Below, one piece after another: positions 5,142 through 62,192 of a DNA stretch of 64,000 bases. Origin of the DNA: Streptomyces triticisoli (GTDB lineage: Bacteria; Actinomycetota; Actinomycetes; Streptomycetales; Streptomycetaceae); assembly GCF_003270085.1 (NCBI RefSeq), contig NZ_QFDQ01000068.1, positions 1 to 64,000 on the forward strand. The letters run 5' to 3'. The position numbers were made by a program, and so were the translations under genes. Below the pieces are notes generated by a model, which had not been told where the DNA came from, did not search any database, and saw only the letters and a list, made by a program, of their open reading frames with translations. The stretch's first letter is position 1. The number at the start of each line of letters is the position of its first letter.

Positions 5142-5198
5142 TCCAGCACTCCGCACGACCCACAGCCCACGCCGGGCGCATCCTGCAAGGAGTCACAG

Positions 5199-6206
5199 AT
5201 GTCCCTCGAGGCCTTCGAGCGCTACCCCCTGCTGTTCGGCCCCAGCCCGGTCCACCCGCTGGACCGGCTCAGTGATCACCTCGGCGGTGCCCGCGTCTGG
5301 GCCAAGCGGGAGGACTGCAACAGCGGGCTGGCCTTCGGCGGCAACAAGACCCGCAAGCTGGAGTACCTGATCCCCGACGCGCTCCGGCAGGGTGCGGACA
5401 CCCTGGTCAGCATCGGCGGGGTCCAGTCCAACCACACCCGGCAGGTGGCCGCGGTCGCCGCGAAGGCGGGTCTGAAGGCCGTCCTGGTCCAGGAGAGCTG
5501 GGTGGACTGGCCGGACGCGGTCAACGACAAGGTCGGCAACATCCTGTTGTCCCGCATCATGGGCGCCGACGTGCGCCTGGTCCAGGCGGAGTTCGGCATC
5601 GGTTTCAAGGACAGCTGGCAGCAGGCCATGGAGGACGTCCGGGCCGCCGGCGGCACTCCGTACGCGATCCCCGCCGGAGCCTCCGACCACCCCCTGGGTG
5701 GCCTCGGCTTCGCCAACTGGGCCTACGAGGTCCAGCAGCAGGAACGCGAGCTCGGGGTCTTCTTCGACACGATTGTGGTGTGCAGCGTCACCGGGAGCAC
5801 TCACGCGGGCATGATCGCCGGCTTCGCGGGCCAGGACCGGCCCCGCCGCGTGCTGGGCATCGACGCCTCCGCCAAGATCGTCGAGACCCGTGCCCAGGTG
5901 GAGAAGATCGCCCGCAACACCGCCGAACTCATCGGCCTCCGCCGGGACTTGCGCGACGACGAGATCACTGTCCTGGAGGGCTGGGCCGGCGACCACTACG
6001 GCATCCCCGTCGAGTCCACCCTGGATGCCATCCGGCTCACCGGCCGTCTCGAAGGCATGATCATCGACCCCGTCTACGAGGGCAAGTCCATGGCCGGACT
6101 CATCGACCTGGTCCAGCTCGGAGACATCTCCGAGGACTCCAACGTCCTGTACGCCCACCTGGGCGGCCAGCCCGCCCTCAACGCCTACAGCGGCGTCTTC
6201 CACTGA
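5199..6206 (+). CDS. acdS: 1-aminocyclopropane-1-carboxylate (ACC) deaminase
   Basis: This is a PLP enzyme that converts ACC, the plant ethylene precursor, to 2-oxobutyrate and ammonia. The 335-residue protein follows the AcdS family end to end: [43 protein letters not shown] with the PLP lysine at residue 50, [29 protein letters not shown], and the [11 protein letters not shown] and [16 protein letters not shown]-terminal motifs. The last two separate true ACC deaminases from D-cysteine desulfhydrases, although substrate specificity still needs assay. An AAGGAG ribosome site precedes the ATG. It is probably co-transcribed with the GntR gene. Confidence 0.93.
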
Positions 6207-6528: not shown

Positions 6529-7341
6529 ATGACCCACCGGACGACTCCGGAACCAGCGGCGCACCGGAAGATCGACACGTCGGTGCCGCACTCGGCCCGG
6601 ATCTGGAACTACTGGCTGGGCGGGAAGGACAACTACCCCGTCGACGAGGAGGCCGGCGACGCGTACACCGCCGTCTTCCCCGGCATCGTCACCATCGCCC
6701 GCAGCAGCCGGGCCTTTCTGCGCCGCGGCATCACATATCTGGTCGCCGAGGCGGGCATCCGCCAGTTCCTGGACATCGGAACCGGTCTGCCGACGGCTGA
6801 CAACACCCATGAGGTGGCCCAGCGCATCGCCCCTGAGTGCCGGATCGTCTACGTCGACAACGACCCGATGGTCCTGACACACGCCCGCGCCCTGCTCCAC
6901 TCCACACCGGAGGGGGCAACCGACTACGTCGACGCCGACGTACTGGACCCGGACCGCATCCTGGCGGCCGCCGCCAGGACGCTGGACCTCACCCGCCCCA
7001 CCGCCCTCATCCTCAGCAACATCCTGGGCCACATCTCCGACTTCGACCAGGCACGTTCCATCGTCACCCGCCTGATGGACACGTTGCCGTCCGGCAGCTA
7101 CCTCTCCATCAACGATGGTTCACGGGGCGTCGACCCGGTCTTCGAACAGGCCCAGGACGCCTACAACGAAAGCGGCGCCGTTTCCTACAACCTGCGCACC
7201 GTCGAGCAGATCACGACGTTCTTCGACGGCTTGGACCTCATGGACCCCGGAGTCGTCTCCGTCCCGCACTGGCGCCCGGATCCCGGCTCCCCTGCCGCGG
7301 AACCCGTCGCCGAGCACGGCGGCCTCGCCCGCAAGCCCTGA
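6529..7341 (+). CDS. SAM-dependent methyltransferase, DUF574 type
   Basis: This 270-residue protein belongs to the DUF574 (Methyltransf_19) family that is heavily expanded in Streptomyces and other actinomycetes. It carries the family opening PHSARIWNYWLGGKDNYPVDEEAGD, the SAM-binding QFLDIGTGLPTADNTHEVAQ, and VDNDPMVLTHARALL. Substrates are unknown for nearly all members. It stands alone between acdS and the uridine locus. The ATG at 6529 fits the family start, but the upstream ribosome site is weak. Confidence 0.87.
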   Translation: MTHRTTPEPAAHRKIDTSVPHSARIWNYWLGGKDNYPVDEEAGDAYTAVFPGIVTIARSSRAFLRRGITYLVAEAGIRQFLDIGTGLPTADNTHEVAQRIAPECRIVYVDNDPMVLTHARALLHSTPEGATDYVDADVLDPDRILAAAARTLDLTRPTALILSNILGHISDFDQARSIVTRLMDTLPSGSYLSINDGSRGVDPVFEQAQDAYNESGAVSYNLRTVEQITTFFDGLDLMDPGVVSVPHWRPDPGSPAAEPVAEHGGLARKP

Positions 7342-7542
7342 CCACACCCGACGGGCCTACACCCGACGGGCCCACGTCCGGCCGAGCCGCACCCCGACCG
7401 GTTGCTCCGAGTGAGCGGGAGCCCGGGGTGTTTCGCACGCGGACTCAGAAGTACGACTGCCGCACAGGGGACGCCGCGGGCGCGGGCTCCGACGGGCTCT
7501 CGGCGAGGTGGGGTCCACCGGCCATGACGACGCAGGTCCTCC

Positions 7543-7590
7543 GGACTCCCGGTGCCCGGGCTGCCGAGCGCGCCCGGGCACCGGGAGTCC
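7543..7590. repeat. Perfect 18-bp inverted repeat (hairpin)
   Basis: GGACTCCCGGTGCCCGGG (7543-7560) and its exact complement (7573-7590) are separated by 12 bases. It lies about 200 bases after the methyltransferase and may be a long intrinsic terminator. The rest of 7342-7757 shows no convincing gene. Confidence 0.6.
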
Positions 7591-7714
7591 GTGAGGCGTA
7601 CGAGGACAAGGGCTGGGGTGCCGGCACGGCGGCCTTCATCGTGATGACGTCGTGGCCGCGTGAGGTCCTCGACGACACCCGACCAGCCGGACCGTACTGA
7701 CCGGCGCACCTCCA

Positions 7715-7752
7715 CCCTCTCCCACCGGGAAGGACTTTCCGGCGGGAGAGGG
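7715..7752 (-). terminator. Hairpin at the end of uriT
   Basis: CCCTCTCCCACCGGGAA pairs with TTCCGGCGGGAGAGGG around a short loop with one mismatch. It begins 5 bases beyond the transporter stop and is the probable terminator of the leftward transporter/hydrolase operon. Confidence 0.6.
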
Positions 7753-7757
7753 GGTGC

Positions 7758-9200
7758 TCAACGTGCTTCCGCGACCACCGGCTTGGGGATGAGGAACGAC
7801 GTCGCGATGGCGACGGTCATGATGACGGCACCGGTGATCATGGCGGTGGTGTAGCCGCCGGTCGATGCCGGATCCGCGGGCGCCACCGCGGTCTTGACCG
7901 CGTACAGTGCCGCGAAGCTCAGACCGGCGCCGAGGTTGAACGCACCCGCGTTCAGGCCGGGCAGGAACCCGGGGTTCTCGCGCGGGGACAGCACGATGCC
8001 GAGCCCGTTGAGCACGATGTTCCCGATCCCCGCATAGGTGATCCCGACCAGGATGGACGCCGTCAGCAGCAGGGCGCGCGAGTGGCTGCCGAGGGTGAGG
8101 ACCAGCAGGACGACGGTCCCCACGGCCCCGACCAGGCCGAACCGCAGGACCCGCCCGTACCCGAGGCCGGCGGCCAGCCGGCCCGCGAGCGGGCCCATGG
8201 CCAGCCCGGCTAGGGCGTACGGCGTGAGGGTCCACCACGCGGACTGCTGGGCGGACATGCCCAGTCCGGTCTGGGCGTCCTCGGCGAACGCCGGGATCAG
8301 CCCGTTCATGATGGCGAACACGCCCGTCATGGTGAGCACCGTGGTCAGCAGGAGCGCCCAGGTCGAGCGCTGCCTCAGATGGTGCGTGGCGACCAGCGGG
8401 TGCCCGCTGCGGCCCTCGGTGCGCCAGAACAGGACGAAGGCGGCGGCGGCGACCACGAGGAGGAGGGCGACGAGCGGCCAGTTGGCCGCGGCGAGCTTTC
8501 CGGCCTCGTTCAGCGCGATGAGCAGCGAGCCGACCGAGACGACGAGGAGAACGACGCCGGGCCAGTCCATGCGGGCGGCGACGGGCGCCTTGGACTCGGA
8601 GGTCATCAGAGCGACCATGACCGTGGCGACGGCCGCGACGACGGCCATCGTCCAGAAGACCGACTGGAACCCGTGGTGGTCGGAGAGGTAGCCGCCCGCG
8701 AGGGCGTCGACGCCGGCGACTCCGCCGTTGAAGGCGGTGATCACACCGAGCAGGGTGCCGTAGAGCTTGGGCTCGGGCACCTCCACCCGCAGCATGATCA
8801 GGCACAGCGGGACGACCGGGCCGCACACGCCCTGGAGGACACGTCCGGCGAACAGGACCGGCACGTTGTGCGCGAACGCGGCGATGACGCATCCGACGGC
8901 CATCAGGGCCAGCATCCCGGTGAGGACCTTGCGGCGGCCGATGACATCGCCCAGCCGGGGCAGGAAGAGCGAGAACAGGGCCGCCGAGGTGAAGAACGCG
9001 GTCTGGGTGAGCCCGATCTCGGCGGAGGTGGCGTTGAGGGCGCCCTCCATGCTCTTCAGTGCCGGGCTGAGCATGCTGGCGTTGAGCTGGAAGGCCACGC
9101 AGGCGGCGAGCAGCGCGGTCAGCAGCACACCGATCCGGACCGGGGAGCCCTGCGCCGGGCAGGGCGGTTTGTCGGTCGTGGGAAAGCTGGGAGCGGTCAT
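7758..9200 (-). CDS. uriT: MFS transporter, probable uridine importer
   Basis: This 480-residue major facilitator protein has about 14 predicted membrane segments. Typical elements include the loop LPRLGDVIGRRKVLTG after the second helix and the first-half motif AGRVLQGVCGPVVPL. It overlaps the nucleoside hydrolase stop (ATGA) and shares a locus with a LacI regulator and ribokinase. That layout matches the Corynebacterium glutamicum uriR-rbsK1-uriT-uriH cluster, so uridine or a similar nucleoside is the inferred cargo. A decayed paralogue with the same VLNGLGIVLSP...PGFLPGL stretch lies at 38.7-39.4 kb. Confidence 0.82.
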   Translation of the reverse strand: MTAPSFPTTDKPPCPAQGSPVRIGVLLTALLAACVAFQLNASMLSPALKSMEGALNATSAEIGLTQTAFFTSAALFSLFLPRLGDVIGRRKVLTGMLALMAVGCVIAAFAHNVPVLFAGRVLQGVCGPVVPLCLIMLRVEVPEPKLYGTLLGVITAFNGGVAGVDALAGGYLSDHHGFQSVFWTMAVVAAVATVMVALMTSESKAPVAARMDWPGVVLLVVSVGSLLIALNEAGKLAAANWPLVALLLVVAAAAFVLFWRTEGRSGHPLVATHHLRQRSTWALLLTTVLTMTGVFAIMNGLIPAFAEDAQTGLGMSAQQSAWWTLTPYALAGLAMGPLAGRLAAGLGYGRVLRFGLVGAVGTVVLLVLTLGSHSRALLLTASILVGITYAGIGNIVLNGLGIVLSPRENPGFLPGLNAGAFNLGAGLSFAALYAVKTAVAPADPASTGGYTTAMITGAVIMTVAIATSFLIPKPVVAEAR

Positions 9201-10144
9201 GCCTCGACGTCACCGATCCGCTCGAGCGCGTCCACCACGAGATTCCAGAACCGCTCGTGGTCCAGCTTCACCGCGACCTGGGTGTGGCAGTCGTCCGGGG
9301 CGGGCGCCCGGAAGTCCGCCACGGTCATGCCTAGGGTGAGGGTGCCGGTGAGCTCGATGTCCACGGGCGCCTTGCGCACCGTCATGACGTCCGGGTCGAT
9401 GACGTACGCGACCGCGCACGGGTCGTGCACGGGCGGGAACCGGAAGCCCTGCGCCTGCTCGTACATCGCGCCGAAGAAGTCCAGCAGCTCCAGGACGAAC
9501 TTGGCGGGCCCGGTGCCGACCGCGGCGATCTTCTCGACGACATCGGGTGTCGCGAGCGCCTGGTGCGTCAGGTCGAGACCGACCATGGTGACCGGCCAGC
9601 TCTCGTTGAAGACGATGTGGGCGGCCTCGGGATCGATCTTGATGTTGAACTCGGCGACCGCGCTCCAGTTGCCCTCGTGGTAGCCGCCGCCCATCAGGAC
9701 GACCTCGCGGACTCGGGAGGCGATCCGCGGTTCCTTGCGGACCGCCATGGCGATGTTGGTCAGACCGGCGGTCGGCACGATCGTGATCTCACCCGGCTCG
9801 TGCGACATCACCGTGTCGATGATCAGGTCGACCGCGTGCCGGCGGTCCAGCTCCAGGGTCGGCTCGGGCAGCACGGGTCCGTCGAGCCCCGACTCGCCGT
9901 GGATGTCCGGCGCGATCTCGATGGGGCGCACCAGCGGCCTGGGGCAGCCCGCGGCGAAGGGCACTCCGGTGATCCCCGCGATGCGTGCCACGGACAGGGC
10001 GTTGCGGGTCACCTTCTCCAGGGTCTGGTTCCCGACCACGGTCGTGACGGCGACCAGCTCGATGTCGGGATTGCCGTGTGCCAGAAGCATGGCGATGGCG
10101 TCGTCATGGCCGGGGTCGCAGTCGAGGATGATCTTTCTGGCCAA
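9197..10144 (-). CDS. uriH: Nucleoside hydrolase, probably uridine-preferring
   Basis: This enzyme cleaves ribonucleosides to base plus ribose. The protein (315 residues) opens KIILDCDPGHDDAIAM, the DxDxGxDD calcium-site signature of inosine/uridine hydrolases, and has the VVLMGGGYHEGN and VHDPCAVAYVIDPD motifs with the late catalytic aspartate. A TTG start at 10144 is preferred: AAGGGG lies 7 bases upstream and the family begins here. The longer ATG frame (to 10279) would run through the LacI-type operators. The released ribose would feed the neighbouring ribokinase. Confidence 0.88.
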   Translation of the reverse strand: MARKIILDCDPGHDDAIAMLLAHGNPDIELVAVTTVVGNQTLEKVTRNALSVARIAGITGVPFAAGCPRPLVRPIEIAPDIHGESGLDGPVLPEPTLELDRRHAVDLIIDTVMSHEPGEITIVPTAGLTNIAMAVRKEPRIASRVREVVLMGGGYHEGNWSAVAEFNIKIDPEAAHIVFNESWPVTMVGLDLTHQALATPDVVEKIAAVGTGPAKFVLELLDFFGAMYEQAQGFRFPPVHDPCAVAYVIDPDVMTVRKAPVDIELTGTLTLGMTVADFRAPAPDDCHTQVAVKLDHERFWNLVVDALERIGDVEA

Positions 10145-10245
10145 CGGAGAGCCCCTTCGCTTGCTGAACTGTGGTGAAACCGATCTCCGGGGGACGCGCG
10201 GGCGGTCGAAGCCGGAGGGGCGCCGAGTGGGTTCGGCGCTGGGGG

Positions 10246-10386
10246 AAACGTTTGGGCAAACGTTCTCCCGAACGGTCACCTATTTTTCGCTCAGATGTCA
10301 ATGGCAACTACACCTTGTTTTTCGTCACACAGGTCCACGTCCCTCATCGCGCACATCGGAGGCGGGGAGCCGAGTGATAACGTTCT
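10246..10386. promoter_or_regulatory. Cluster of LacI-type AACGTT operators between uriH and uriR
   Basis: Two adjacent 8-mers, AAACGTTT (10246-10253) and AAACGTTC (10258-10265), lie near uriH. A third site, GATAACGTTCTC (10376-10387), lies nearer uriR. A central AACGTT or similar palindrome is typical of LacI-family operators. Sites on both sides of the divergent intergenic region suggest that UriR controls both transcripts. Confidence 0.6.
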
Positions 10387-10450
10387 CCGACACCGGTGCT
10401 GGAGGCGTGTGTTTGCCGGGAAGTCGACCGACAGAAGGGGCCGGAGCGCG

Positions 10451-11506
10451 GTGACCGAGGTGACCTTGCGGGACGTGGCCCGCGTGTCGGGCTGCTCCGT
10501 CGCCACGGTGTCCCGGGTGCTGGCCGGCACCCGTCCGGTGGGCGCCGAGACCGCGCGCCGCGTAAGGGCCGCGGCCGAAAGCCTCGGCTACCGGCCCAAC
10601 CAGGTCGCCCGTGCCCTGCGTAGCCGCTCCACCGGCACCATCGGCCTGGTGCTGCCGCAGATCATGAACCCCTTCTTCCCCTCCCTCGTGCGGGAGGTCG
10701 AGCACGCCCTGCACGCCGGGGGCCGCGGCCTGCTGCTCGCCGACTGCGACGACGACCCGGCGACCGAGGCGGACCGGATCACCGCCCTGCTGGACCGGCA
10801 GGTGGACGCGCTGCTGGTCATCCCCGTCGACGAAAAACGCAGCCGCGACGCCGTCGCGCTCGCGGCGGCCCGGGTGCCGCTGGTGCTGCTGGACCGGGCC
10901 TGCGGCCCCGGGATCGCCGACTCGGTGGCCGTCGACAACGCCGCCGGCATGGCCCTCGTCCTGGACCACCTGGCCGGCACCGGACGCCGCCGTTTCTGCT
11001 TCCTGGGCGCCGCCGGAACCGCCTCGACAGCCGTCGAGCGGCGCATCGCCTACGAGACCGGGGTCGCCGCTCTGGACCCATCGGCCCCCGGCCGCGTCGA
11101 ACTCGGCGACTTCTCCGTGGAATGGGGGCGGGCCGCGGTGGACCGGATCCGGCCGGCCCGCCCGGACGCCGTCATCTGCGCCAACGACCTCATCGCGGTC
11201 GGTGCGGTGCAACGCCTCCGGCAACTCGGCGTGGACGTGCCCGGCGAGGTCGCCGTCACCGGGTTCGACGACATCCCCATGGCGAGCCTCGCCGAACCGG
11301 CCCTGACCACGGTCCGCCAGCCGGCCGCCGAAGTGGCGGCCGAGGCGCTCCGGCTCCTCGACCAGCGGCTCGCCGGCAGGGGCGCGGAGGCACACCGGTC
11401 CGTCCGCCTCGCGCCCGAACTCGTCGTACGCGCCTCCAGCTCTGCCCGCGCCGCCGCGCCCAGAGCCGTCATCCCCAGCAGCAGAACCTCAGAGGAACAC
11501 CAGTGA
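10451..11506 (+). CDS. uriR: LacI-family regulator of uridine/ribose use
   Basis: This 351-residue regulator has an N-terminal LacI helix-turn-helix (VTLRDVARVSGCSVATVSRVLAGTRPV), the hinge GYRPNQVARALRS, and a periplasmic-binding-protein-like sugar domain ending in VAVTGFDDIPMASLAEPALTTVRQP. GTG at 10451 is chosen because the HTH begins three residues later; the upstream ATG frame crosses an operator. It overlaps the ribokinase start by 4 bases (GTGA). The effector is likely ribose or a phosphate of it, inferred from context. Confidence 0.85.
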   Translation: MTEVTLRDVARVSGCSVATVSRVLAGTRPVGAETARRVRAAAESLGYRPNQVARALRSRSTGTIGLVLPQIMNPFFPSLVREVEHALHAGGRGLLLADCDDDPATEADRITALLDRQVDALLVIPVDEKRSRDAVALAAARVPLVLLDRACGPGIADSVAVDNAAGMALVLDHLAGTGRRRFCFLGAAGTASTAVERRIAYETGVAALDPSAPGRVELGDFSVEWGRAAVDRIRPARPDAVICANDLIAVGAVQRLRQLGVDVPGEVAVTGFDDIPMASLAEPALTTVRQPAAEVAAEALRLLDQRLAGRGAEAHRSVRLAPELVVRASSSARAAAPRAVIPSSRTSEEHQ

Positions 11507-38689: not shown

Positions 38690-39420
38690 GGCGAACGGTC
38701 CGGCGCGGACCGGGAACAGCCGCAGGCCGTCAAGGACGTCGCGATGGCGGCGGCCAGGTCGACGACTCCGGCGATCATGCCGGCGGTGCGGTCGGCGGGC
38801 GACGTGGGAACGGAGGGCAGGGCCGCCGTCTTGACCGCGTACAGCAGCGCGAAGCTGAGACCGGTACCGGGGCTGAACGCCCCCGCGCTCAGGCCGGGCA
38901 GGAACCCTGGACTCCCCTTGGGGGAAAGGACGATGCCGAGCCCGTTGAGCACGATGTTCGCCGCGTCCTCGAAGCGGACGATCCGCCAGTTCGGCAATCG
39001 CCTCCGGCGACGGAGGACGTGACTTACGGGGCTGCCCATCGGTCCGCCCGCTCGTCCTGGGCGAGTGCCGGGGTCAGTCCGTCACGGCGAGGAGTGCGAC
39101 TCCCGGCCGGTCCATCCGGCCGCGGCGGGTGGCTTGGACTCGGGGGCCAGGGCGGCGACCAGAACGGTGGCGAGGATCGCCACGACGGCCGTCGTCCGGA
39201 AGGCCGACCGGAAGCCGTGGTTGCCGGCGGAAGCCACGGGCCGGGGCGTCGACACCGGCGATGCCGCCGTTGACGGCAGTGATCACGCTCAGCGGGGTGC
39301 CGTACGTCTTCGACTCGGTCGCCTCCACCCCGGCATGATCAGGCAGAGAGGGACGACCGGGCCGGACCACCCTGGATGATGCGGTCGGCGAACAGTACGG
39401 ACTTCCAGGCATTTCAAACT
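38690..39420 (-). pseudogene. Decayed second copy of the uridine-type MFS transporter
   Basis: Leftward fragments match the transporter at 7.8-9.2 kb: KTYGTPLSVITAVNGGIAGVDAPARG against KLYGTLLGVITAFNGGVAGVDALAGG, then after a gap VLNGLGIVLSPKGSPGFLPGLSAGAFSPGTGLSFALLYAVKTA against its C-terminal region. Several frames are used and the middle of the protein is deleted. No regulator, hydrolase or kinase relic accompanies it. Confidence 0.85.
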
Positions 39421-48881: not shown

Positions 48882-49139
48882 AGAAGCGGTGATCTTCCAC
48901 AACGCGCTGGACATCGCGGAGATCGTGCGCGGCTCCAGGAGGAGGGCCACATCATCGACCCAGAGGACCTGGCACACATCTCGCCGTACCTGATCGAGCA
49001 CATCCGCCGCTTCGGCGAGTACTCCACCCACGAACTCGGCCTTGAGCCCGAGGCGTACGACCCGCACCTCGATGTCGACTTCAGCTCGCTCCGCGGCGAC
49101 GATCCGCCCGAGGCCGACGGCTACGGCCAGGCAGCATGA
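48882..49139 (+). pseudogene. Tn3-type transposase C-terminal relic
   Basis: The reading EAVIFHNALDIAEIVR continues, after a one-base deletion (GTGCGC-GGCTCC), as LQEEGHIIDPEDLAHISPYLIEHIRRFGEYSTHELGLEPEAYDPHLDVDFSSLRG. This matches the C-terminus of Tn3-family transposases (HISPY..EHIRRFGxY). A second copy of the same tail is at 58.97-59.21 kb. The catalytic domain is absent. Confidence 0.7.
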
Positions 49140-49345
49140 CCCCTCGCCCACGGTCTCGGTCAGCCGCTGTTCGTCACCGACTTCGCCGCACCGCACGTAC
49201 AGGTGCCCGCCGAGCTCCCCGCCTCCCGGGAGCAACTGGAGGGACGGATGCTCGGTGCCCTGGAGGAGTTCGACGCCCACATACCCTGTCCGGAAGGTCA
49301 TGAGCAAAGCCAGATGCCGGTGCCACAAGCGATGGGATGTCATAC

Positions 49346-53113: not shown

Positions 53114-54634
53114 TCAGGCGTCACAGGTCACGTCCTCGGCCGGCAGGCGGCCGGTCGCGAAGTACCTGTTGACGCTCGCATCGACGCAGGCACTGCCGAA
53201 CACGCCGTACACCGCGTGCTGGTCCGTGCCCCGCAGGGTGACCAGGCGGGAGCTGGGCCAGTTCCGGCGCTGTGCGACGGCGCCCGGGTAGATGGTGCGC
53301 GGGTCACCGGTGGCGTTGACGAGCAGCGCCGGGAAGTCGCCCCGGATGGCCGTCGGGGCCTCGCGCGGCGGGGCCCAGAAGGCGCAGGGGCCGATGTTCC
53401 GCGTGACGGGAGCGAAGAGCGGGTCCTGTGCCCGGGAGCGCTGGATGTCGCGCCAGTACACCTCCGGGTCGCGCGGCGCGGCCACGTCGCCGCACAGGAT
53501 CGCCGACTGCACGCTGCCGTAGGCGGAATCGGAGCCCGTGAGCACGAACTTCAGCGTATCGGCGAAGCCCGGACCGGGCCGGACACGCTGCCCCTGGGCG
53601 GCACGGCTCATGTCCCGCACGGCCCGCGCCAGGGCGCCGTGGGCATCGTCGTTGTCCTGGGAGAGACCGCTGAAGACGATCGTCGGAACGGTGTGATCGT
53701 CCAGCCGGTAGGAGCCCACCTTCAGTGGCGCGCGCGTCGCGGCGGCCTGGATGCGGTTCACCGACGCCAGTACGGCGTCACGGGTGCGGCCCAGACCGTA
53801 CGTGGTGTTCCGGGCGGCGGTCCACGACGCCCAGTTGGCCAGCGCGTGCCGGTTGGCCGCCTCGGCGCCCCGCAGCAGGCGGGGTGAGTACCGGCCGGGG
53901 TCGACCACCCCGTCCAGGACCATGCGGTCGACACGGCCGGGGAACATCGTGGCGTACACCGCGCCGAGGTAACTGCCGTAGGAGTAGCCGAGGTAGGAGA
54001 TCCTGCGCTCGCCCAGCGCGGCACGGATGATGTCCATGTCGCGGGCGGTGTTGCGCGTGGTGACGTACGGCAGTACCGGGCCCTCGGACGTCCGGCAGCG
54101 CTGCGCGAGGTCACGGGCGAACGCCGTCGTGCGGTCGAACCCGGCACGGCCGGCACCCGCACCCTGGATCGAGGTGCCCGTCGGCCAGTGGCAGTCCAGC
54201 GGGGTGCTGCGGCCCACGAAGCGGGGGTCCACCCCCACGACGTCGTACCGTGCGCCGACGTCCTTCAGCGCCTGGCGTACCCACGGCGCGTCGCCGAGCG
54301 TCTGGCCGCCGGGGCCGCCGCCGTTGAGCAGCAGCGGGCCGACGCGGTGAGGGGTGTCGGTGGCCCGGATCCTGGAGATCGCGACGGTGATGGTCCGCCC
54401 GCCGGGGTCGTCGTGGTTCAGGGGGACGGTGACGTCGGCGCACTCGGCGCCGGCCTGGTGGAGTTCCTTGCCCGTGTCGTCGTCCGGGCCCTGGACACAG
54501 CTCTTCCAGGCGAGGTGCTGGTGGTGGAAGCGGGTCAGAGGGCCGCCGGCGCCCGTGGCCGCGGTGGCGGCGGGCGCGGACAGCAGGGGGACGGCCAGGG
54601 CGAGGGCCGCGCAGAGCGCGGTGCGGCGGTTCAT
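53114..54634 (-). CDS. Secreted alpha/beta hydrolase, TAP-like (tripeptidyl aminopeptidase family)
   Basis: This 506-residue exported hydrolase has a signal peptide (ALCAALALAVPLLSAPAATA). It shows the oxyanion region LLLNGGGPGGQ, the nucleophile elbow GYSYGSYLGAVYA, DGVVDP, and a C-terminal TAP-like domain with PALLVNATGDPRTIYPGA (Asp) and GTDQHAVYG (His). Cysteines in the mature chain suggest extracellular disulfides. Relatives such as SlpD/SlpE release short peptides from the N-terminus. Its start overlaps the stop of the beta-lactamase-fold gene (ATGA), so the pair is co-expressed. Confidence 0.9.
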   Translation of the reverse strand: MNRRTALCAALALAVPLLSAPAATAATGAGGPLTRFHHQHLAWKSCVQGPDDDTGKELHQAGAECADVTVPLNHDDPGGRTITVAISRIRATDTPHRVGPLLLNGGGPGGQTLGDAPWVRQALKDVGARYDVVGVDPRFVGRSTPLDCHWPTGTSIQGAGAGRAGFDRTTAFARDLAQRCRTSEGPVLPYVTTRNTARDMDIIRAALGERRISYLGYSYGSYLGAVYATMFPGRVDRMVLDGVVDPGRYSPRLLRGAEAANRHALANWASWTAARNTTYGLGRTRDAVLASVNRIQAAATRAPLKVGSYRLDDHTVPTIVFSGLSQDNDDAHGALARAVRDMSRAAQGQRVRPGPGFADTLKFVLTGSDSAYGSVQSAILCGDVAAPRDPEVYWRDIQRSRAQDPLFAPVTRNIGPCAFWAPPREAPTAIRGDFPALLVNATGDPRTIYPGAVAQRRNWPSSRLVTLRGTDQHAVYGVFGSACVDASVNRYFATGRLPAEDVTCDA

Positions 54635-55833
54635 GAAGATGTCCTTCTGGAAGGGCGGTCCTCGCAGAACGCGGTCTGCACGACGTCGAGGAAGTTCTGT
54701 TCGGCCTGGAGCGTGGAGGGCACTTGGTTGAGCGCGACGGACACGCTGCGCCCGTCCGGACCGACGGCGGTGAAGGCGCGATGGCCGCCCGGTACGGTCC
54801 CCGCGTGCCCCCACCACGCGCCGCCGCAGCGCAGCGGGGTCGAGATCAGGCCGAGGCCGTAGCGGGCCCCTGGCCAGATCCGGTCGGGATCGGCGGCCAC
54901 GGTCTGCCGCATCGCCGCCAGTTGGGCCGGGGGCAGCAGGCGGCCGGAGAGCAGGGCATGGGCGAAGCGCGCGAGATCGGCCGGTGTGGAGACGAGCGCG
55001 CCTCCGACGCCGCCGAAGGTCATGTTCCAGGCGGTGCCGTCGACACGGCGGCCGTCCTGGTCGGCGAAGTAGCTGCGGGAGTGCTTCCCGCGGAGGCGGA
55101 TGTCGTCGCCCGGCCAGTACGTGTCGCGCAGCCCGAGCGGGCGCAGGATGCGGCGGGTGATCTCCGCCTCGGGGGCGTTGCCGGTGACCTCACGGATGAG
55201 CAGGCCCGCGATCAGGTAGTTCGTGGTGGCGTAGTGCCAGGAGGACTGCGGACGGGGGAGTTCCAGGGCGCGGGCGACGAGTTCGCGCGGCTCGAAGTGG
55301 CGTCGCCGCATCCGTTCCGGGTGGTCCCATTCGGGTGCGTCGAGATGGTCGGGCAGCCCGCTGGTGTGCTGCAGAAGCTGCCGCACCGTGATCCGGCGGC
55401 CGTCATGACCGTGGGAACGGATCAGGCCGGGCAGGTGGCGGTCCACCGGGGCGTCGAGCGACAGCCGGTGCTCGGCGACGAGTTGGAGCACGACGGTGGC
55501 GGTGAACGTCTTGGTGACGCTGCCGGCGCGGAGGCGGTCGGTCGCGTTCATCGGGCGTTTGGTGCGCAGGTCGGCCGTTCCGGAGGTCTGCGTCCAGCGG
55601 GTGCATGACGGCCCGTCGGGGTGCGCGGGGTCGGTGACCAGGACAGCGGCTCCGACGATGCCGTCGTGCGCGACCAGGGTCCTCACGGCCTGTTGCAGTT
55701 GCCGGTGGTCACCGCAGTGGGCGGCTGCCGGTGGGCGGGGTCGTGGGAACGCCGCCGGAGCGGCGGACAGGACCAGGCCGGCGACCACGGCCGCGACGCC
55801 TGCCCGCCGGACGGTCGGGGGTAAGGAAAGCAT
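54631..55833 (-). CDS. Serine beta-lactamase-fold hydrolase (class C/DD-carboxypeptidase-like)
   Basis: This 400-residue secreted protein has a signal peptide and the Beta-lactamase family motifs: SVTK (Ser105, Lys108), YATTNY (YxN) and the HAGTVPG third motif. It resembles the Streptomyces R61 DD-peptidase and related peptidases or esterases. It is coupled to the TAP-like hydrolase downstream, so both may act on extracellular peptides or the cell wall. No clear ribosome site is seen; the ATG at 55833 fits the signal peptide. Confidence 0.87.
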   Translation of the reverse strand: MLSLPPTVRRAGVAAVVAGLVLSAAPAAFPRPRPPAAAHCGDHRQLQQAVRTLVAHDGIVGAAVLVTDPAHPDGPSCTRWTQTSGTADLRTKRPMNATDRLRAGSVTKTFTATVVLQLVAEHRLSLDAPVDRHLPGLIRSHGHDGRRITVRQLLQHTSGLPDHLDAPEWDHPERMRRRHFEPRELVARALELPRPQSSWHYATTNYLIAGLLIREVTGNAPEAEITRRILRPLGLRDTYWPGDDIRLRGKHSRSYFADQDGRRVDGTAWNMTFGGVGGALVSTPADLARFAHALLSGRLLPPAQLAAMRQTVAADPDRIWPGARYGLGLISTPLRCGGAWWGHAGTVPGGHRAFTAVGPDGRSVSVALNQVPSTLQAEQNFLDVVQTAFCEDRPSRRTSS

Positions 55834-56110
55834 GGTCAGCCATGGTAGGCAGGCCCGGGCGAACGCTCACTGCGGAGGGCAGGTGTCTTGCGAGGGGTGC
55901 CGGCCCCCGGTGGCGGCCTGTGGTCTTCCCCACCTCCCACCTCCCACCTCCCGCCTTCCCGCTGTCGGCGACGCGTGGTGTTCCCGCTCGGCGATCGCGA
56001 GGACCGAAGCGCCCATGCGGCCGAGAGGCAGGCTTTGAACCTTACGGAACAGACCAACTCCTCAGCCCATATGCCATGAATGGGGCATTGCCCCGCGCCG
56101 AGCTCCGCAA
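55834..56110. other. Intergenic region with short CACCTCC repeats
   Basis: Three consecutive CACCTCC-type units lie at about 55929-55950. No gene or clear hairpin is seen. Confidence 0.5.
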
Positions 56111-56480
56111 CTTCCGTACGGACCTTGGGTGACCGAAGCTTCTTGTGGCGTCATGAGTCCTGCTGCTGGAGCCCCCGACCCCTACGCCGTCCTGCACGCA
56201 TGGCTGTCCGGGACGTACGCCCCGACGGCCAGGAAGTCCGCGGCCGCTCCTGGGACGACGACACCCGGTACCGCTACGGCCTCCTCCTCGCCGGCGTCGA
56301 CGCCCCGCCCGGATGGACCCACGACTGGTTCACCTGCATCGGCGACCTCGTCCGGCACTTCAAACCCCTGCACATCCAGGACTGCGCCGCCCGCCTGACG
56401 AACCTCGACGGCACCCCCACGGCCGACTCCTCCCGCGGCCGCGCCGTCTCCGCCATCCGCTCCTTCTACGCCCACGGAGA
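56111..56480 (+). pseudogene. Tyrosine recombinase N-terminal relic
   Basis: The reading YAVLHAWLSGTYAPTARKS, then in another frame RSWDDDTRYRYGLLLAGVDAPPGWTHDWFTCIGDLVRHFKPLHIQDCAARLTNLDGTPTADSSRGRAVSAIRSFYAHGEV, looks like the SAM-like arm-binding domain of an actinomycete integrase. It is frameshifted and the catalytic part is absent. A C-terminal recombinase relic lies at 60.85-61.52 kb. Confidence 0.6.
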
Positions 56481-57440
56481 AGTGCGCTCGGCGGAACGGA
56501 ACCGCACACTGCGCACAGCGGGGCTCGGCCTGTGCACGGCACGCATCCTCTCCGCGGCACTCGCCTCCTCGACGGCCATGGTCGGCGGACACGGCCTCTC
56601 CCCGGTGCTGTCCTACGCCGCACTGTGCGCTGCGACGGGCCGGGGTCTGGTGCGCCGGCTGGAGCGGGTGGTGACGGTCTGCACACCGACAGTGCGCGAC
56701 GGTCGCAGGCCGCGACTGCTGCTGTGTGCGGTACCGGTTCTCTGCGCGGCAGGGACATGGCCTGCGCTGCTGTACCTGCTGCATCTCCCCGAGGCGACGC
56801 TGTACGCCTCCTCGTTCGTGGCTCCGGGCCGGCCCGGAGCAGTCGTGTTCTTCCTGGCCGTACAGCACATGAGCCAAGTGGGCACGGCCGCTTGGGTGTC
56901 ACTGGCGATCGTGACCGCATACGTACTGCTGCTCGCCGGACAGGGGTGGTCCTGGCGGCCGTCGGCCGTGGCCGCGCGTGGTGAGTTCGTCCCGGTCAGG
57001 CCGCCGGGGTGGCTGTGGGCACGGCTCGGCGCCCCTGCCGGGCTGGTGGCCTCGGTGCTCCTCACCCCCTGGTGCTGCTGTACACGCTGAGCACCTGGAA
57101 GGTGGCGCTCCGGACGTTGATCGCAGCTGTACAGATGGCGGCCGCCCTGTGGGCCGGGCGCGGCCCCGCCTGCTGCCCGTCGCACGGGCTGCGCTCGCCG
57201 CCTACGGCGCCGGCGTTGTCGCGATGGTCGGCTGGGCCACGCAGATTGCTCTGCTCGGCTGCGCGGTGGGCACGAGCGCCTGTCACCCGCTGCCGCAGCC
57301 GAGCATGCTGAAGCCGGGCATGAAGACCGCGGCACCCGGAGCGCTGCTCGCCGCAGGCGTCTGCGCAGCACTGTACGCGCGGCGCGAACGCAGGCATCGC
57401 CGCGAGGCCGCAACTCGTCCCCTCGGGGCGCCGTTGACGA
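56481..57440 (+). pseudogene. Hypothetical multi-spanning membrane protein, frameshifted
   Basis: In one frame (to 57090) several hydrophobic helices are seen: LLCAVPVLCAAGTWPALLYLL, GAVVFFLAVQHMSQVGTAAWVSLAIVTAYVLLLAG, and GAPAGLVASVLLTPW. After a shift near 57075, similar helices continue in other frames (YGAGVVAMVGWATQIALLGCAVG, PGALLAAGVCAALYARRERRHRR). No family is recognised. The simplest reading is one membrane protein gene with one or two indels. Confidence 0.5.
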
Positions 57441-57624
57441 GCGGCGGGCCACACAGGTGGCCCCGACCACCGCTGAACCAACGGTCTGAGCATCACAGGC
57501 AGCCGCCTTGCCCCGGGGACAGCGTTGGGAGTCCGGGGCGGCCGATGTTGCCGTTGCCGGGGACCCTCCCGGTGGCGAGCTGCTCCCGGGTGGGCCCCGG
57601 ACTCCCAGCACAGACACCGGGGAC

Positions 57625-57653
57625 ACGGCGAACCCGCGGAATGTTGCGCAAAC
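57625..57653 (+). repeat. Copy 1 of the CGAACCCGCGGAATG repeat
   Basis: CACGGCGAACCCGCGGAATG followed by TTGCGCAAAC matches the terminal repeats of the 235-bp element at 58606-58840 with a few changes. It is oriented opposite to the copy at 58606. Confidence 0.7.
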
Positions 57654-57697
57654 GCCGCCGTCTGCCAGCTCGCGCAGAGCCGGTTTCGCCAGGCGAT

Positions 57698-58399
57698 CTA
57701 CGCCGGGACAAGGACGGTAAGCCATTCCGCTTCGCGTGGCCGGTACCCGTACCGATCCCACAGGCCCGACACGATCGCCGGGACGTGGCCGGCCCCGTAG
57801 ACGATGGCCACCCGGATCGGCTCGTCGCCGCGCTCCGCATGGATCTCGCCGAGCACGGCGAGCAACCGCCGGTCGCGCCGACCGGTCATCGCGTGCTTCA
57901 CAGGATCGTCGGCCATCATCTCCGCCCGCAGTGTCGACGGCAGATCCTCGACCACCAGATCCTCATCGAGGAAGGCGCGCGGACCGCGCAGCGCGAACAC
58001 CAGGCCCATCACGGGAGCCGCGACCATGAGCAGCAGGTACGTCCACCGCGGCAGCGTCTTCAGGTCCGCGATCGCCTCCGCCGCGGTCACATCCGGGTTG
58101 ACGACCGGCACGCCCTCGGGAAGCAGCAGCTCCTCGCGCTGCTCCTGCAGGCCGTTGCGCCGTCGGCGTGGGGCGAACCGGTAAGCGAGCGTGAGGGCAC
58201 TCACTCCGACCGACTTCCCTCGGATTCCCTCGATGACTATGAGGTCGCATTCCCTGAGCCTGATGCGGACCTGGGAGTAGAAGGTCGGCGAAGCCACATG
58301 AAGCATCGGGAAGATCACGAATTCAAGTGGCGTTCCTGTCCGCCTCATGGTGATCACAGCAGATCGGACGGCATAACCGGTCACCTCGATGATCTGCAT
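57698..58399 (-). CDS. TraB/PrgY-family protein
   Basis: This protein of about 233 residues has the TraB signature: an N-terminal LEFVIFPMLHVASPTFYSQVRIRLRECDLIVIEG and a C-terminal VAIVYGAGHVPAIVSGL. One membrane segment (LLLMVAAPVMGLVFAL) lies in the middle. Family members include pheromone-shutdown and GumN/TIKI-like metalloproteases; the role here is unknown. ATG 58399 is preceded by GGGGG; a longer frame upstream reads poorly. The gene is flanked by inverted copies of a 25-29 bp repeat (57625-57653 and 58606-58634). Confidence 0.75.
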   Translation of the reverse strand: MQIIEVTGYAVRSAVITMRRTGTPLEFVIFPMLHVASPTFYSQVRIRLRECDLIVIEGIRGKSVGVSALTLAYRFAPRRRRNGLQEQREELLLPEGVPVVNPDVTAAEAIADLKTLPRWTYLLLMVAAPVMGLVFALRGPRAFLDEDLVVEDLPSTLRAEMMADDPVKHAMTGRRDRRLLAVLGEIHAERGDEPIRVAIVYGAGHVPAIVSGLWDRYGYRPREAEWLTVLVPA

Positions 58400-58605
58400 G
58401 ATTCCCCCGCGAACCTCGCCCGGTCTCTCTTCCACCCGTACCAGGACACGAGCCCGCCCAGGGCCGCGGTTCCCCCGGCGCAAGCCGTGTCGCCGGACAG
58501 TGGGGTATCGATCAGGCACTCCCGCGACACCACCTGGCCGCCGACCACCCTCGGCAGCACGTGATCAAACCGGCCACAACGCGAAAACGACGCAGCCCTG
58601 GCCCA

Positions 58606-58840
58606 GTTGTGCGACATCCCGCGGGTTCGCCGTGCCCCTCGGTTCCTTGGCATGGGGCCTGACCAGGCACCTCGTCGCCCTCGACCTGTGCGTCTGTGCG
58701 TCTGTGCAGGGATCATGATGGTTCTTCGGGAATCCCGAAGAACCATCATGATCTATGCGGATCCCTCGCTCCCGTCTGACGGGTTGACCTGCGGCAACGG
58801 GAGATGGCAGCCAGGACGAACCCGCGGAATGTCGCACAAC
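58606..58840. mobile_element. 235-bp foldback (MITE-like) element
   Basis: The ends are 24-bp inverted repeats with one mismatch: GTTGTGCGACAT / CCCGCGGGTTCG at 58606-58629 and its complement at 58817-58840. The centre holds a 43-bp palindrome. No coding frame is contained. A third copy of the end repeat lies at 57625-57653. A Tn3-type transposase tail starts about 120 bases to the right, so the element may be a derivative of a Tn3-family transposon. No target duplication was identified. Confidence 0.65.
58711..58753. repeat. 43-bp perfect palindrome (21-bp arms, 1-base centre)
   Basis: The left arm starts GATCATGATGG and ends TTCTTCGGGA; the right arm is its exact complement. It is markedly AT-richer than the surroundings and sits near the centre of the 235-bp element. 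Confidence 0.95.
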
Positions 58841-58964
58841 GGATACAGGGGGAGGCGCGGTCAGGGCCCTGACGCGATGATGACCGACACTGTCTTGGCG
58901 AGGGCCATGAGCGGCACCGTCGACTCGCCTCTGCCCCCTCTGCCGGATCGTGTCGCAGAGCTTC

Positions 58965-59212
58965 TGTCTGAAACGCCCTGGACATCGCGGAGATCGTGCG
59001 CCGGCTCCAGGAGGGGGGGCCGGATCGTGGCCCCCGAGGACCTGGCCCGCATCTCCCCGTGCCTGACCGAGCACATCCGCCGCTTCGGGGAGTGCTCCAC
59101 CCACGAACCCGGCCTCCAGCCCGAGGCGTACGACCCGCACCGGGACGTCGACTTCAGCCCGTTGCGCGACGATGATCCGCCCGGAGCCGACGGCTACGGC
59201 CGGGCCGCCTGA
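58965..59212 (+). pseudogene. Tn3-type transposase C-terminal relic, second copy
   Basis: The reading LDIAEIVRRLQEGG shifts in a run of G near 59016-59022 and continues as RIVAPEDLARISPCLTEHIRRFGECSTHEPGLQPEAYDPHRDVDFSPLRDDDPPGADGYGRAA. It is clearly homologous to the tail at 48.9-49.1 kb but broken at a different base. Upstream catalytic sequence is absent. Confidence 0.7.
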
Positions 59213-59604
59213 CCCGCAACCCCAGGACCAGCGGACCGGGGCCAGGGGGGGGCCGCGTCCCGCTGCGCGACCTGGACACGCTCCGTGAGGAAGACGGAGG
59301 CGGGCAAGAACGAGCGTTGCATCCCGGAGGCGGAAGCCGGGGCGGGGCAGCCCGGATGCCATGGAATGATCCGAGTTGGACGACCCATGTCCGCACTGCG
59401 ACGGTCAGGCTGTCTCGGGATCGTCATGATGACTGGTTACGGCGTCAGGACGTGCCGGGAGTGCAAGAGCTCGCGTAGGCGGCAGCCCGGCTGTGACGCT
59501 TCCTCCGGCAGTCGGCTGTCGTCACGTGGTTGATCTGCTCGCCGGGACGCTCCGCGACGTGTCGGCGACCCTGTAGGGTCGCGGGTCGGAGCCGGGCGGC
59601 GCGG
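59213..59604. other. No supported gene
   Basis: About 390 bases with an 8-base G run near 59247. Only short, poor frames are seen. No strong hairpin at the end of the neighbouring genes. Confidence 0.5.
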
Positions 59605-60747
59605 TCAGCCCTTGACCGTCATGCTCTCGACGCCGGGAAAACCCTTGTCCCACCAGTGCCCATAGCGCCGGTATACGACCGGCTCACGGACGGCGAGCAG
59701 CCTCCACAGCCGCTCCGCCTCTTCGGCCAGACCTTGCCACGCGACCTTGCCGAGCTTGTGGAAGGCTGTCAGCTCCAGCCCGCCGTCGCCGGCCCGCCAC
59801 ACTCCGGCGACCTGCCCGTCGACAAGCAGGCAGGGCAGCACGTCGCCGTTGCGCCGGACGACCAGCGGCCGGTACTCCTCGGGCACGAGCCGACCGGGGC
59901 CGGCGTGGGCCAGCAGCGTGCTGTCCCACATCGGCAGCAGCCGCGGCGGCGCCGGGGTGTCCTCGGCCGGCACGGTCGCATCCGCCAGGTCGAACAGGGC
60001 GGCGCGGCCCGGGCCCGCCACCCGCACCACCCGGTCGCCGAGTTCCTGCAGCGCCTGCGTGATCACGGGACGCGTGAGCAGGGTGAACCGGGCGAAGTCC
60101 GGGGCCGACGCGGGCCCGAACGCCCGCAGGTAGGAGAGCAGCAGCCGCCGTACCCCCGCGCCCGCGTCCTGCGGCGCGGACCCGGGGGCCGCCGCCGGGG
60201 AGGCGAAGTAGGCGTTCGGCTGCGTGAACGACCACGGGCCGCCGGTCGGCGCGTGATGCGCCGCCGCGTACGTCCGCAGCGCCCACCACACGCGGTGCGC
60301 GTGCTCGCCGAACCGCCCAGTTATTTCGTCCTGCACCTCGGCACCGGTGCGGGGGCGCGCCAGGAACCCGGCGAGCTCCGGGAGCAGTGCGTCGGCGTCG
60401 GCGTGGGTCAGCCCGGTGGCGGTGAAGCGGCGGTCGTACAGCCGCGCCGCCCGCAGGCTGCTCAGCATGGCGGCGTGGTAGGGCGCGTAGTCCTCGGCGT
60501 GGACGGCGTGCAGCGTGATCCGCATGAGGGACGCCTTCACGATCCGGCGCTCCGCGAACGCCGCGTCGAGATCCTCGGGCGCGAAGTCCCGCACACGGTT
60601 CCACAGCGCCAGGTACGGCGACGCCGGTTCCTGCGCCTGCAGAGCGCAGACCCGGCGGACCGCCTCCGCCACATCGAGGCGCCGGCGTTCGAGCAGGAAC
60701 TGACGCTCCAAGGTGGCCAGGGCGAGCTGTCGCGCGGTGAGGATCAT
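59605..60747 (-). CDS. AlkZ-like (HTH_42/YcaQ) DNA glycosylase
   Basis: This 380-residue winged-helix protein is of the HTH_42 superfamily. Gln37-Ala-Gln39 in [20 protein letters not shown] reproduces the catalytic QxQ motif and even the numbering of Streptomyces AlkZ, a glycosylase that excises alkylated or cross-linked bases. Later family features are [44 protein letters not shown] and [14 protein letters not shown]. AlkZ-type enzymes often protect producers of DNA-alkylating antibiotics, but housekeeping paralogues exist and no such cluster is visible here. ATG 60747 fits the family; the longer frame is rejected. Confidence 0.82.
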
Positions 60748-60849
60748 GCGTGGATTATGCGGCTCCCGACCGACTGACGTTTCCTCGGCGATTATCACTT
60801 CCAGGTTCTGTTGAGAGCGAGGGCGGCGCGGGCGATGTCGCCGATCCGG

Positions 60850-61520
60850 CTCGGGCTGAGGGCGACCCCGCCGGACTCCGAGACCCCGGCCGCTCGAAAA
60901 TGGCGATCGACCGGCTGATCGCGCGGCGTGAGGTGCACCTGCGGGAGAAGACGCTGTGGCGGATGCTCCATGAGACCGTCGCCCGCGTCGAGGAGATCCT
61001 GGGCGTCAACACCGAGGAGCTGGACCCGGCCGGGCGCCGTGCTCCGGTGAAGGTCAAGGCGCTCGTCCTCGTACGCGTCGCCGCGGTGCCGTCCCGTGAG
61101 GGCTTCGTCCTGGAGGCGGTCCACTGGGACGTGGGTACCGCCCGGCTGCTGCCCGCCTTCTCAAGGGCCGTACTTGCGGCCCGTGTTCGTCACCCACCGC
61201 AAGCCAGGTCCCGGCGAGGTCGTCAGCCCGCGCGACATCTGCCCGGACACCGGGCTCGCCCGCCTCTCCCACGGGCAGGCCCGGATGCCTCTGGACGAGC
61301 ACGCGGCCCTTGGGCGGCGAGCCGGGCACGGGCTGGGACCTCATGGGTGGCGGCACTCCGGTCTGACCCCACCGGCGAGGGCGGGCGGGACGAGCCTGCT
61401 CATGCTGATGGCGAAGTCCCGGCACAAGAAGGCGGAGAACGTACGGAAGGATTTCCACCCTCCCCGGAGGCGACCGCCGCAGTCACCAGCCTGCTCGCGC
61501 CGGGCGACCGCCGACGCTGA
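60850..61520 (+). pseudogene. Tyrosine recombinase C-terminal relic
   Basis: Successive fragments in different frames read [100 protein letters not shown] and [22 protein letters not shown]. These carry the catalytic box I Arg region, box II HxxRHS (His replaced in [11 protein letters not shown]) and the C-terminal end. At least three frameshifts make it inactive. Confidence 0.82.
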
Positions 61521-61757
61521 GCACGGGCGGGTTTCCTCCCGTACTCTCCTTCGCTGTATAGGGGGCGTGGCTGCAACTCACCTGCGTGCATGCGATGTTC
61601 CCGAAGTCCGCCAGGACCTCCTCCCGTGGGGACACTGTCAGGATCGTCATCCCACTGCTCAGGGTCCCACTCATCGCCGAGAGTCGGCCGCATGCGCCAC
61701 AACCCGGCCAGGGGCGGGTCCGTGGACGACGAAAGGCCCCGCCTCTACGATGAACCG

Positions 61758-62192
61758 ATGGCGTCGATCAAGCAGTTCCAAGTCACCTTCGACTGCGCGG
61801 AACCTGAGCGCGTCGCTCGTTTCTGGTGCGAGGTGCTGGGGTACGTCGTACCGCCGCCGCCGGAGGGGTTTGCCACGTGGGACGATTTCGACCGCTCGCT
61901 GCCGCCTGGGCATCAGGGGTCGGCGTTCGCCTGCGTTGATCCCTCAGGCGTGGGTCCGCGCCTGTTCTTCCAGCGCGTTCCCGAAGGGAAGGTCGTCAAG
62001 AACCGGCTGCATCTCGACGTGCGGGTCGGCACCGGGCTCGTGGGGGAAGAGCGCCTGGCCGCACTCGAGGCCGAGTGCGCACGCCTGGTCGCGCTCGGCG
62101 CGGCACGCGTGCGACTGCTGCGTGCCGACGGCGTCAACGAGTCGTGCCTCGTGATGCAGGACATCGAGGGCAACGAGTTCTGTCTCGACTGA
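61758..62192 (+). CDS. VOC (glyoxalase-like) protein
   Basis: This 144-residue single VOC-type protein has [47 protein letters not shown] and the ending [13 protein letters not shown], typical of Glyoxalase_6. Substrate is unknown. ATG 61758 is chosen because the VOC fold begins there. It is isolated between a recombinase relic and the ArsR gene. The 62193-62438 stretch has no clear gene. Confidence 0.83.

Follow-up and report, generated by a model that had tools for sequence, protein, structure and literature searches.

By its sequence, a 231-bp stretch in the window, meaning the whole 64,000-nucleotide DNA analysed here, is a member of a MITE-like family that encodes nothing and occurs in Streptomyces and in one Embleya. 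I consider it reasonably probable, from the match of its ends to those of larger elements, that it is a non-autonomous element moved in trans by a tyrosine recombinase of the type which these larger elements encode. Bacterial MITEs usually go with DDE transposases; if this reading is true, partnership with a tyrosine-recombinase transposon would widen the range of partners known for such elements. The family would also offer a 231-bp natural substrate for testing the movement of Tn554-like transposons in a laboratory Streptomyces, and would point to one way in which genes are shuffled on Streptomyces plasmids.

Structure and distribution of the miniature element

The sequence-only reading had described 58606-58840 as a gene-less foldback element with 24-bp inverted ends carrying one mismatch and an exact central palindrome with 21-bp arms, and each of these points was recovered. 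A repeat search and own-genome BLAST both found the 24-bp ends with their one mismatch (58606-58629 versus 58817-58840, 96% by BLAST), which are contained in a larger inverted repeat found by the repeat search (58596-58634 / 58812-58850, 82% complementary). The repeat search also recovered the central repeat, 58711-58753, which BLAST matched to itself at 98%, and every arm pair of this 43-bp palindrome matches (21/21). No convincing gene lies inside 58606-58840, as the ORFs listed there only cross the element or overlap its edges. The outermost base of the element differs among copies, and the limits conserved across them run from the T of TGTGC at 58608 to the A of GCACA at 58838, i.e., 231 bp. 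The features of the element are as follows:

58608..58838, no strand: miniature element, non-coding; 186.8 bits and E 7.4e-55 with the R1 profile on its own genome; aligned with 15 other copies
58608..58629, plus strand: left terminal inverted repeat TGTGCGACATCCCGCGGGTTCG; pattern match with 0 mismatches
58817..58838, minus strand: right terminal inverted repeat TGTGCGACATTCCGCGGGTTCG, read on the minus strand; pattern match with 0 mismatches
58711..58753, no strand: 43-bp palindrome with outer arms GATCATGATGG/CCATCATGATC and core CTTCGGGAATCCCGAAG; 21/21 arm pairs, conserved in the alignment

The R1 profile was built from 16 copies, that of the window included, so the own-genome score is that of a copy already in the profile.

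The sequence-only reading had taken the element for a possible MITE and had proposed counting its copies by BLAST, with a single copy whose end repeats are absent elsewhere as the outcome that would speak against it; the family instead proved to be multi-copy, with conserved inverted ends and no gene. The same genome holds a second copy at C238:14969-15147 (86%, left end lost), and about 25 further copies, some of them truncated, were found in other Streptomyces chromosomes and plasmids and in one Embleya. A search of 295 genus genomes with the window copy matched six at E <= 1e-6, G279 among them through no more than a 44-bp fragment, while two other copies as queries matched 9/392 and 7/392 genus genomes at E <= 1e-5, the seven including a 49-bp match in G311 that was unconfirmed by the profile. 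Two candidates were scored per genome, so these copy counts may miss some; seven copies, one truncated, were found in G142. The matching plasmid records numbered 12 (11 from Streptomyces and one from Embleya), and a phage origin was dropped, given 0 matches among 50,697 phage records. A scan with the palindrome only, covering one genome per species in 84,980 species, returned 15 stretches, six of them from Streptomyces; the nine others were treated as unrelated, having no end at <= 6 mismatches and, in five cases, a weak profile match (best E 6e-4, L029).

The complete copies (n = 16) measure 214-234 bp between the conserved end bases, and all 16 have terminal inverted repeats. Conservation in their alignment is highest at the ends, in the palindrome arms and in a few inner blocks, and the outer arms of the palindrome are nearly invariant. 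As a side observation, a 94% match to 54435-55934 in G279 leads directly into the 44-bp element piece (58678-58721, 91%; L014 1-1544), which has the short internal GTCTGTGC repeat of the window copy; this stretch is apparently the same region as the window with a deletion.

Folding energy of the element lay far below that of shuffled sequences (z = -8.5 as RNA and -10.5 as DNA, with 0/200 shuffles as low in either case), and this energy, together with a plan that recurs in about 25 other copies, places the ends and the palindrome far from chance. Such a stable fold and the nearly invariant outer arms might be read as a conserved functional RNA or regulatory hairpin that was spread by other means. 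However, only 2 pairs were changed on both sides among the 16 copies, compared with a shuffled mean of 3.6, so covariation was no higher than in shuffles; an Rfam search of 56000-62000 returned nothing at E <= 1, no promoter- or terminator-like consensus site was found in 58300-59200, and patchy presence with conserved terminal repeats is typical of a mobile element. I regard the RNA or hairpin reading as very unlikely. The cruciform or long RNA hairpin suggested by the sequence-only reading can indeed fold, but selection for pairing is unsupported since the arms covary no more than shuffled columns. A perfect palindrome is also rare, as only 2 of 24 palindrome-holding copies (the window copy and L165) pair at every arm position; this comparison had 25 rows, of which L043 was left out, being truncated before the palindrome. 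A protein-bound dyad fits the palindrome at least as well as an RNA or cruciform role.

Borders, inverted pairs and the neighbouring Tn3 fragment

Three further features of the window lie beside the element:

57568..57651, minus strand: truncated second copy, the left end of an inverted element; its terminal inverted repeat at 57629-57650 has 0 mismatches
57652..58605, minus strand: DNA between two inward-facing left ends; 57652-58482 is 93.6% identical to G196:C96, 58513-58603 83% to G019
58972..59215, plus strand: C-terminal fragment of a Tn3 family transposase gene, about 77-84% identical to annotated plasmid genes; a neighbour, not judged part of the element

The left ends of the element are sharp: in the comparisons available, homology ended there or no more than 5 bp away. 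Plasmids of NBC_01340 and NBC_01483 have 1833 bp in common at 98.9%, starting from the left end of the element, and the DNA outside differs; in the P9-2B-2 plasmid, two inverted copies share 345 bp at 99.7% identity and diverge within 5 bp of their left ends. In the window, the block shared with G196 starts at 57652, immediately after the solo end, and the fragment in common with G019 ends at 58603, four bases short of 58608. Sharpness was seen for left ends only, and homology continued beyond the right ends in both plasmid cases.

The sequence-only reading had proposed looking for 5-bp target duplications and empty sites, and the outcome was negative on both counts. Direct duplications of 5 bp or more flanked 0/16 complete copies, two of which had 4-bp matches at shifted offsets, and the flank searches returned no clean, uninterrupted empty site, only blocks that start or stop near the element ends. 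Movement by a tyrosine recombinase would not be expected to leave target duplications; their lack could also come from the age of the copies.

The Tn3 remains that had been noticed next to the element are real, as 58972-59215 matches annotated Tn3 family transposase genes, but the further proposal that a Tn3-type enzyme mobilised it did not hold up. A Tn3-derived, TIME-like miniature would have ends on which a Tn3 transposase acts, making 5-bp duplications, and the transposase fragments at 58972-59215 and 48901-49142 may be cited for it, as may a pair of copies in Streptomyces sp. GQFP that is flanked by AATTC/AATTC three bases outside its ends. Against this, AATTC is a single match obtained from three such composites, each examined at eight offsets (hence 1/3, at a shifted offset), the complete copies lack the 5-bp duplication, and their ends correspond to those of tyrosine-recombinase elements. 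In four Tn3 loci, of which two have only short annotated transposase genes, TGTGCRACATCCC ends at <= 4 mismatches were absent, the best match to the 22-nt end having at least 5 mismatches. The Tn3 reading is largely refuted, and I hold it to be very improbable.

The same C-terminal transposase fragment is present twice in the window (48901-49142 and 58972-59215, 86%), which also has two diverged direct-repeat pairs, 8539-8858 / 39084-39398 and 7795-8022 / 38732-38959. Matches of 81-82% to 58847-58971 in G243 and G174 continue into other DNA, whereas in the window the Tn3 fragment brings this stretch to an end. In NBC_01340 and its near-identical relative NBC_01562, the copy is preceded at a distance of 11 bp by the end of an ISL3 transposase fragment; ISL3 was dropped as a mover, as among the loci looked at the fragment was near copies in these two only.

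The solo left end at 57568-57651 sits 957 bp left of the miniature in inverted orientation, and is matched by BLAST (57616-57651, 86%, E 3.9e-4) and by R1 (E 8e-4), the R1 match being weak if taken alone. Two copies with their left ends facing and 957-1477 bp between them were found at four loci, namely the P9-2B-2 plasmid, Streptomyces sp. GQFP, Embleya, and the window, where the left partner is truncated. The gene inside the P9-2B-2 pair is annotated as a winged helix DNA-binding protein, the GQFP pair encloses a 304-aa ORF, and the window pair encloses ORF 57698-58519, which has no Pfam match and may be TraB-like. In G196, a stretch corresponding to 58518-58575 directly precedes that corresponding to 57652-58482, the reverse of the window order, which may reflect a circular permutation or a repeated flank.

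Four facing pairs are unlikely to arise from independent insertions at few copies per genome, which suggests composites or rearrangement between copies, the number of cases being small. The mobile unit might accordingly be the inverted pair plus the DNA between, carrying a gene as a composite, with single copies as leftovers. The recurrence of this layout at four loci and the start of the inner block of the window right after the solo end are in its favour, but four cases are few, the outer borders gave neither a consistent duplication nor an empty site, the outer flanks in P9-2B-2 run on as a 116-bp inverted repeat, and most copies were single in the stretches fetched; overall, I find the composite unit unlikely.

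Recombinase-encoding relatives and a proposed mode of movement

The 22-nt end pattern was found at <= 2 mismatches in 132/392 genus genomes, compared with 10/392 for a reversed-pattern control, many of the matches being one unrelated conserved sequence, TGCGCGATCTCCCGCGAGATCG, or close to it. The end scan of the 392 genomes also brought up a widespread variant, TGTGCGACATCCCGTGAGTTC[CT]. Behind this variant end, most of the large elements read have a hairpin like CTTCGGGATTCTTGAAG about 100 bp inward, to which the palindrome core of the miniature is similar, and inward of the hairpin follow, in this order, a 359-aa tyrosine recombinase (Phage_integrase, 7e-23), an HTH gene (HTH_26, 2e-10), and a second protein that is weakly recombinase-like (weak SAM-like/integrase). 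These recombinase-encoding elements are roughly 3.8-4.6 kb long; some occurrences of the variant (L157, L158b, and L160) are lone ends only. An identity with the GMT system was rejected, as GmtY/GmtZ models scored far below the cut-off.

Twin large elements in two plasmids of NBC_00984, identical over 6829-10671 (3843 bp) and with different left flanks, fix the ends as TGTGCGACATCCCGTGAGTTC on the left and CTTCAGTTTCCCTGAACTCACGGAGGTC, an imperfect inverted repeat of it, on the right. The genome of the window has a large element of its own on contig C51, with the recombinase at C51:9208-10284 (378-aa open frame, no stops) and a right end ~4.57 kb from the left that has 7 mismatches in 28 and a 143-bp match to the NBC_00984 right end. 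Most of the large elements scanned carried the right-end consensus with 1-7 mismatches in 28; it was not convincing in L153 (9 mismatches), L159, and L167. In L153 (G237, 5162-5516), ~178 bp of left end are joined directly to ~178 bp from the second-gene end and, as judged from this junction, it is an internal-deletion derivative of a recombinase-encoding element.

Some further observations concern these relatives. L158 in G019 has two large-element left ends, at 1514 and 10260, in opposite orientation and 8.7 kb apart. Both NBC_00984 copies (L171 and L172) have a similar sequence, GATGATCTTGAAG, at their right border (10672-10725), which resembles an inverted repeat close to a Tn3 transposase gene in L119; its presence at the right borders is possibly a target preference. 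Broken ORFs at 60750-61520 of the window, for which there was no Pfam match, may be pieces of another tyrosine recombinase.

A profile of the miniature (nhmmer, built from 16 copies) was compared with 21 left ends of large elements, 20 of which beat the best of 4200 Markov shuffles (7.1 bits); 15/21 align from the end through the inner hairpin at nearly the same spacing (best E 2e-8), and it is on the end and this hairpin that the match rests. The end pattern itself had served to select 16 of the 21 left ends. Of those selected by protein search, 4/5 match the profile, two of these being the identical NBC_00984 twins, and the low score of the fifth, L175, means little as it was scored at the wrong position (its left end is near 5706). 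A second program, run from the same alignment, was in agreement (E 2.7e-8 for L171 and E 6e-6 for L173).

The miniature thus has its end motif in common with the recombinase-encoding element, as a derivative of a Tn554-like transposon would, but it has only one of the two end types that such a derivative would carry: both of its ends are left-type, and those of the large element are of two different kinds, left-type and right-type. It is therefore at its left-type end only that a related larger element shares the ends of the miniature, and a simple internal deletion of the large element does not make the miniature. Since both halves resemble the left end, the impression is of two left ends set in mirror image around a hairpin.

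Co-occurrence of the miniature with TnpA is weak, which counts against the recombinase reading. A TnpA relative at E <= 1e-20 was present in 3/9 miniature-carrying genomes, the source in the genome of the window being C51; the best match in G142 is truncated and that in G339 has only 37% identity. In a sample of 246 genomes, close TnpA was found in 21, which include the carriers G000 and G142 and do not include the carriers G012, G024, G079, and G170. The weak co-occurrence and the two left-type ends would be in keeping with some other mover enzyme that recognises similar ends, the resemblance to tyrosine-recombinase elements then coming from shared binding sites or convergence; since the match takes in not only the 22-nt end but also the inner hairpin and the spacing, I think this doubtful.

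In the preferred reading, i.e., movement by a tyrosine recombinase of the large-element type, the recombinase, the HTH protein and the second protein of large elements would be supplied in trans. At both ends of the miniature, they would bind the end motif GACATCCCGYGRGTTC, flanked on its outer side by TGTGC, and they would also bind the inner CTTCRGGAWTCCYGAAG dyad; the two ends would then be joined, probably through a circle, and the miniature DNA would be inserted elsewhere without target duplication. Tn554-like movement would be expected to carry along a 6-bp footprint from the donor flank. The palindrome may serve as a dimeric binding site or accessory recombination site at the centre of symmetry. 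I infer all three of these points: mobilisation in trans, passage through a circle and what the palindrome does. A more speculative extension, which I would put forward only tentatively, is that a class of gene-less, self-symmetric miniatures, with the recombinase-side end mirrored on either side of a palindrome, is moved by a tyrosine recombinase, that the palindrome folds on a single-stranded circle as a site of recombination or a start site for second-strand synthesis, and that inverted pairs take up intervening genes and carry them along.

Comparison with known systems

Bacterial MITEs, including the Tn3-derived TIMEs, are short and gene-less, with terminal inverted repeats, several copies and a larger relative, and the miniature is like them in all these respects. 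It differs in having no target duplication, a long central palindrome, and ends that match those of a tyrosine-recombinase element and not of a DDE transposase. The palindrome-associated elements (PATE) of haloarchaea likewise combine a palindrome with a small mobile repeat; they belong to another domain of life and are likened here by description.

According to the relevant parts of PMC10214605, SEs have imperfect inverted end motifs and leave a 6-bp footprint instead of a duplication. SE, GInt, and RIT elements, as presented there, resemble the large element in having more than one recombinase-type protein and differ from it in their gene sets and, for SE and GInt, also in their hosts; gene-less members, such as the miniature, are absent from those descriptions.

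The Tn554-related transposons of actinobacteria have two adjacent tyrosine-recombinase-type genes and occur on plasmids and chromosomes, including those of Streptomyces (Van Houdt et al., 2012, PMC3414803). As in the part of that account drawn on here, the large element has two recombinase-type genes, one of a typical size of ~350 aa. Unlike the transposons described there, it has an HTH gene between the two, the annotated length of its second protein is 418-532 aa (L171, L173, and L174) versus 611-828 aa, and the miniature encodes nothing. Plasmid pNOCA01, given in Table 2 of PMC3414803, carries a relative at 42.5%, an overlap at the level of the plasmid in which the locus may differ. Tn554 does not duplicate its target, to go by the title of a reference cited in PMC10214605, and the miniature is likewise without target duplication. 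The open-licence PMC literature searched held no gene-less relatives of Tn554-like transposons and no Streptomyces MITEs with these ends. The gene-less member would be new and the kind of transposon is already known, with the mobilising enzyme being one that I infer; by its two recombinase-type genes, the recombinase-encoding element resembles the Tn554-related transposons of actinobacteria as they are set out in PMC3414803.
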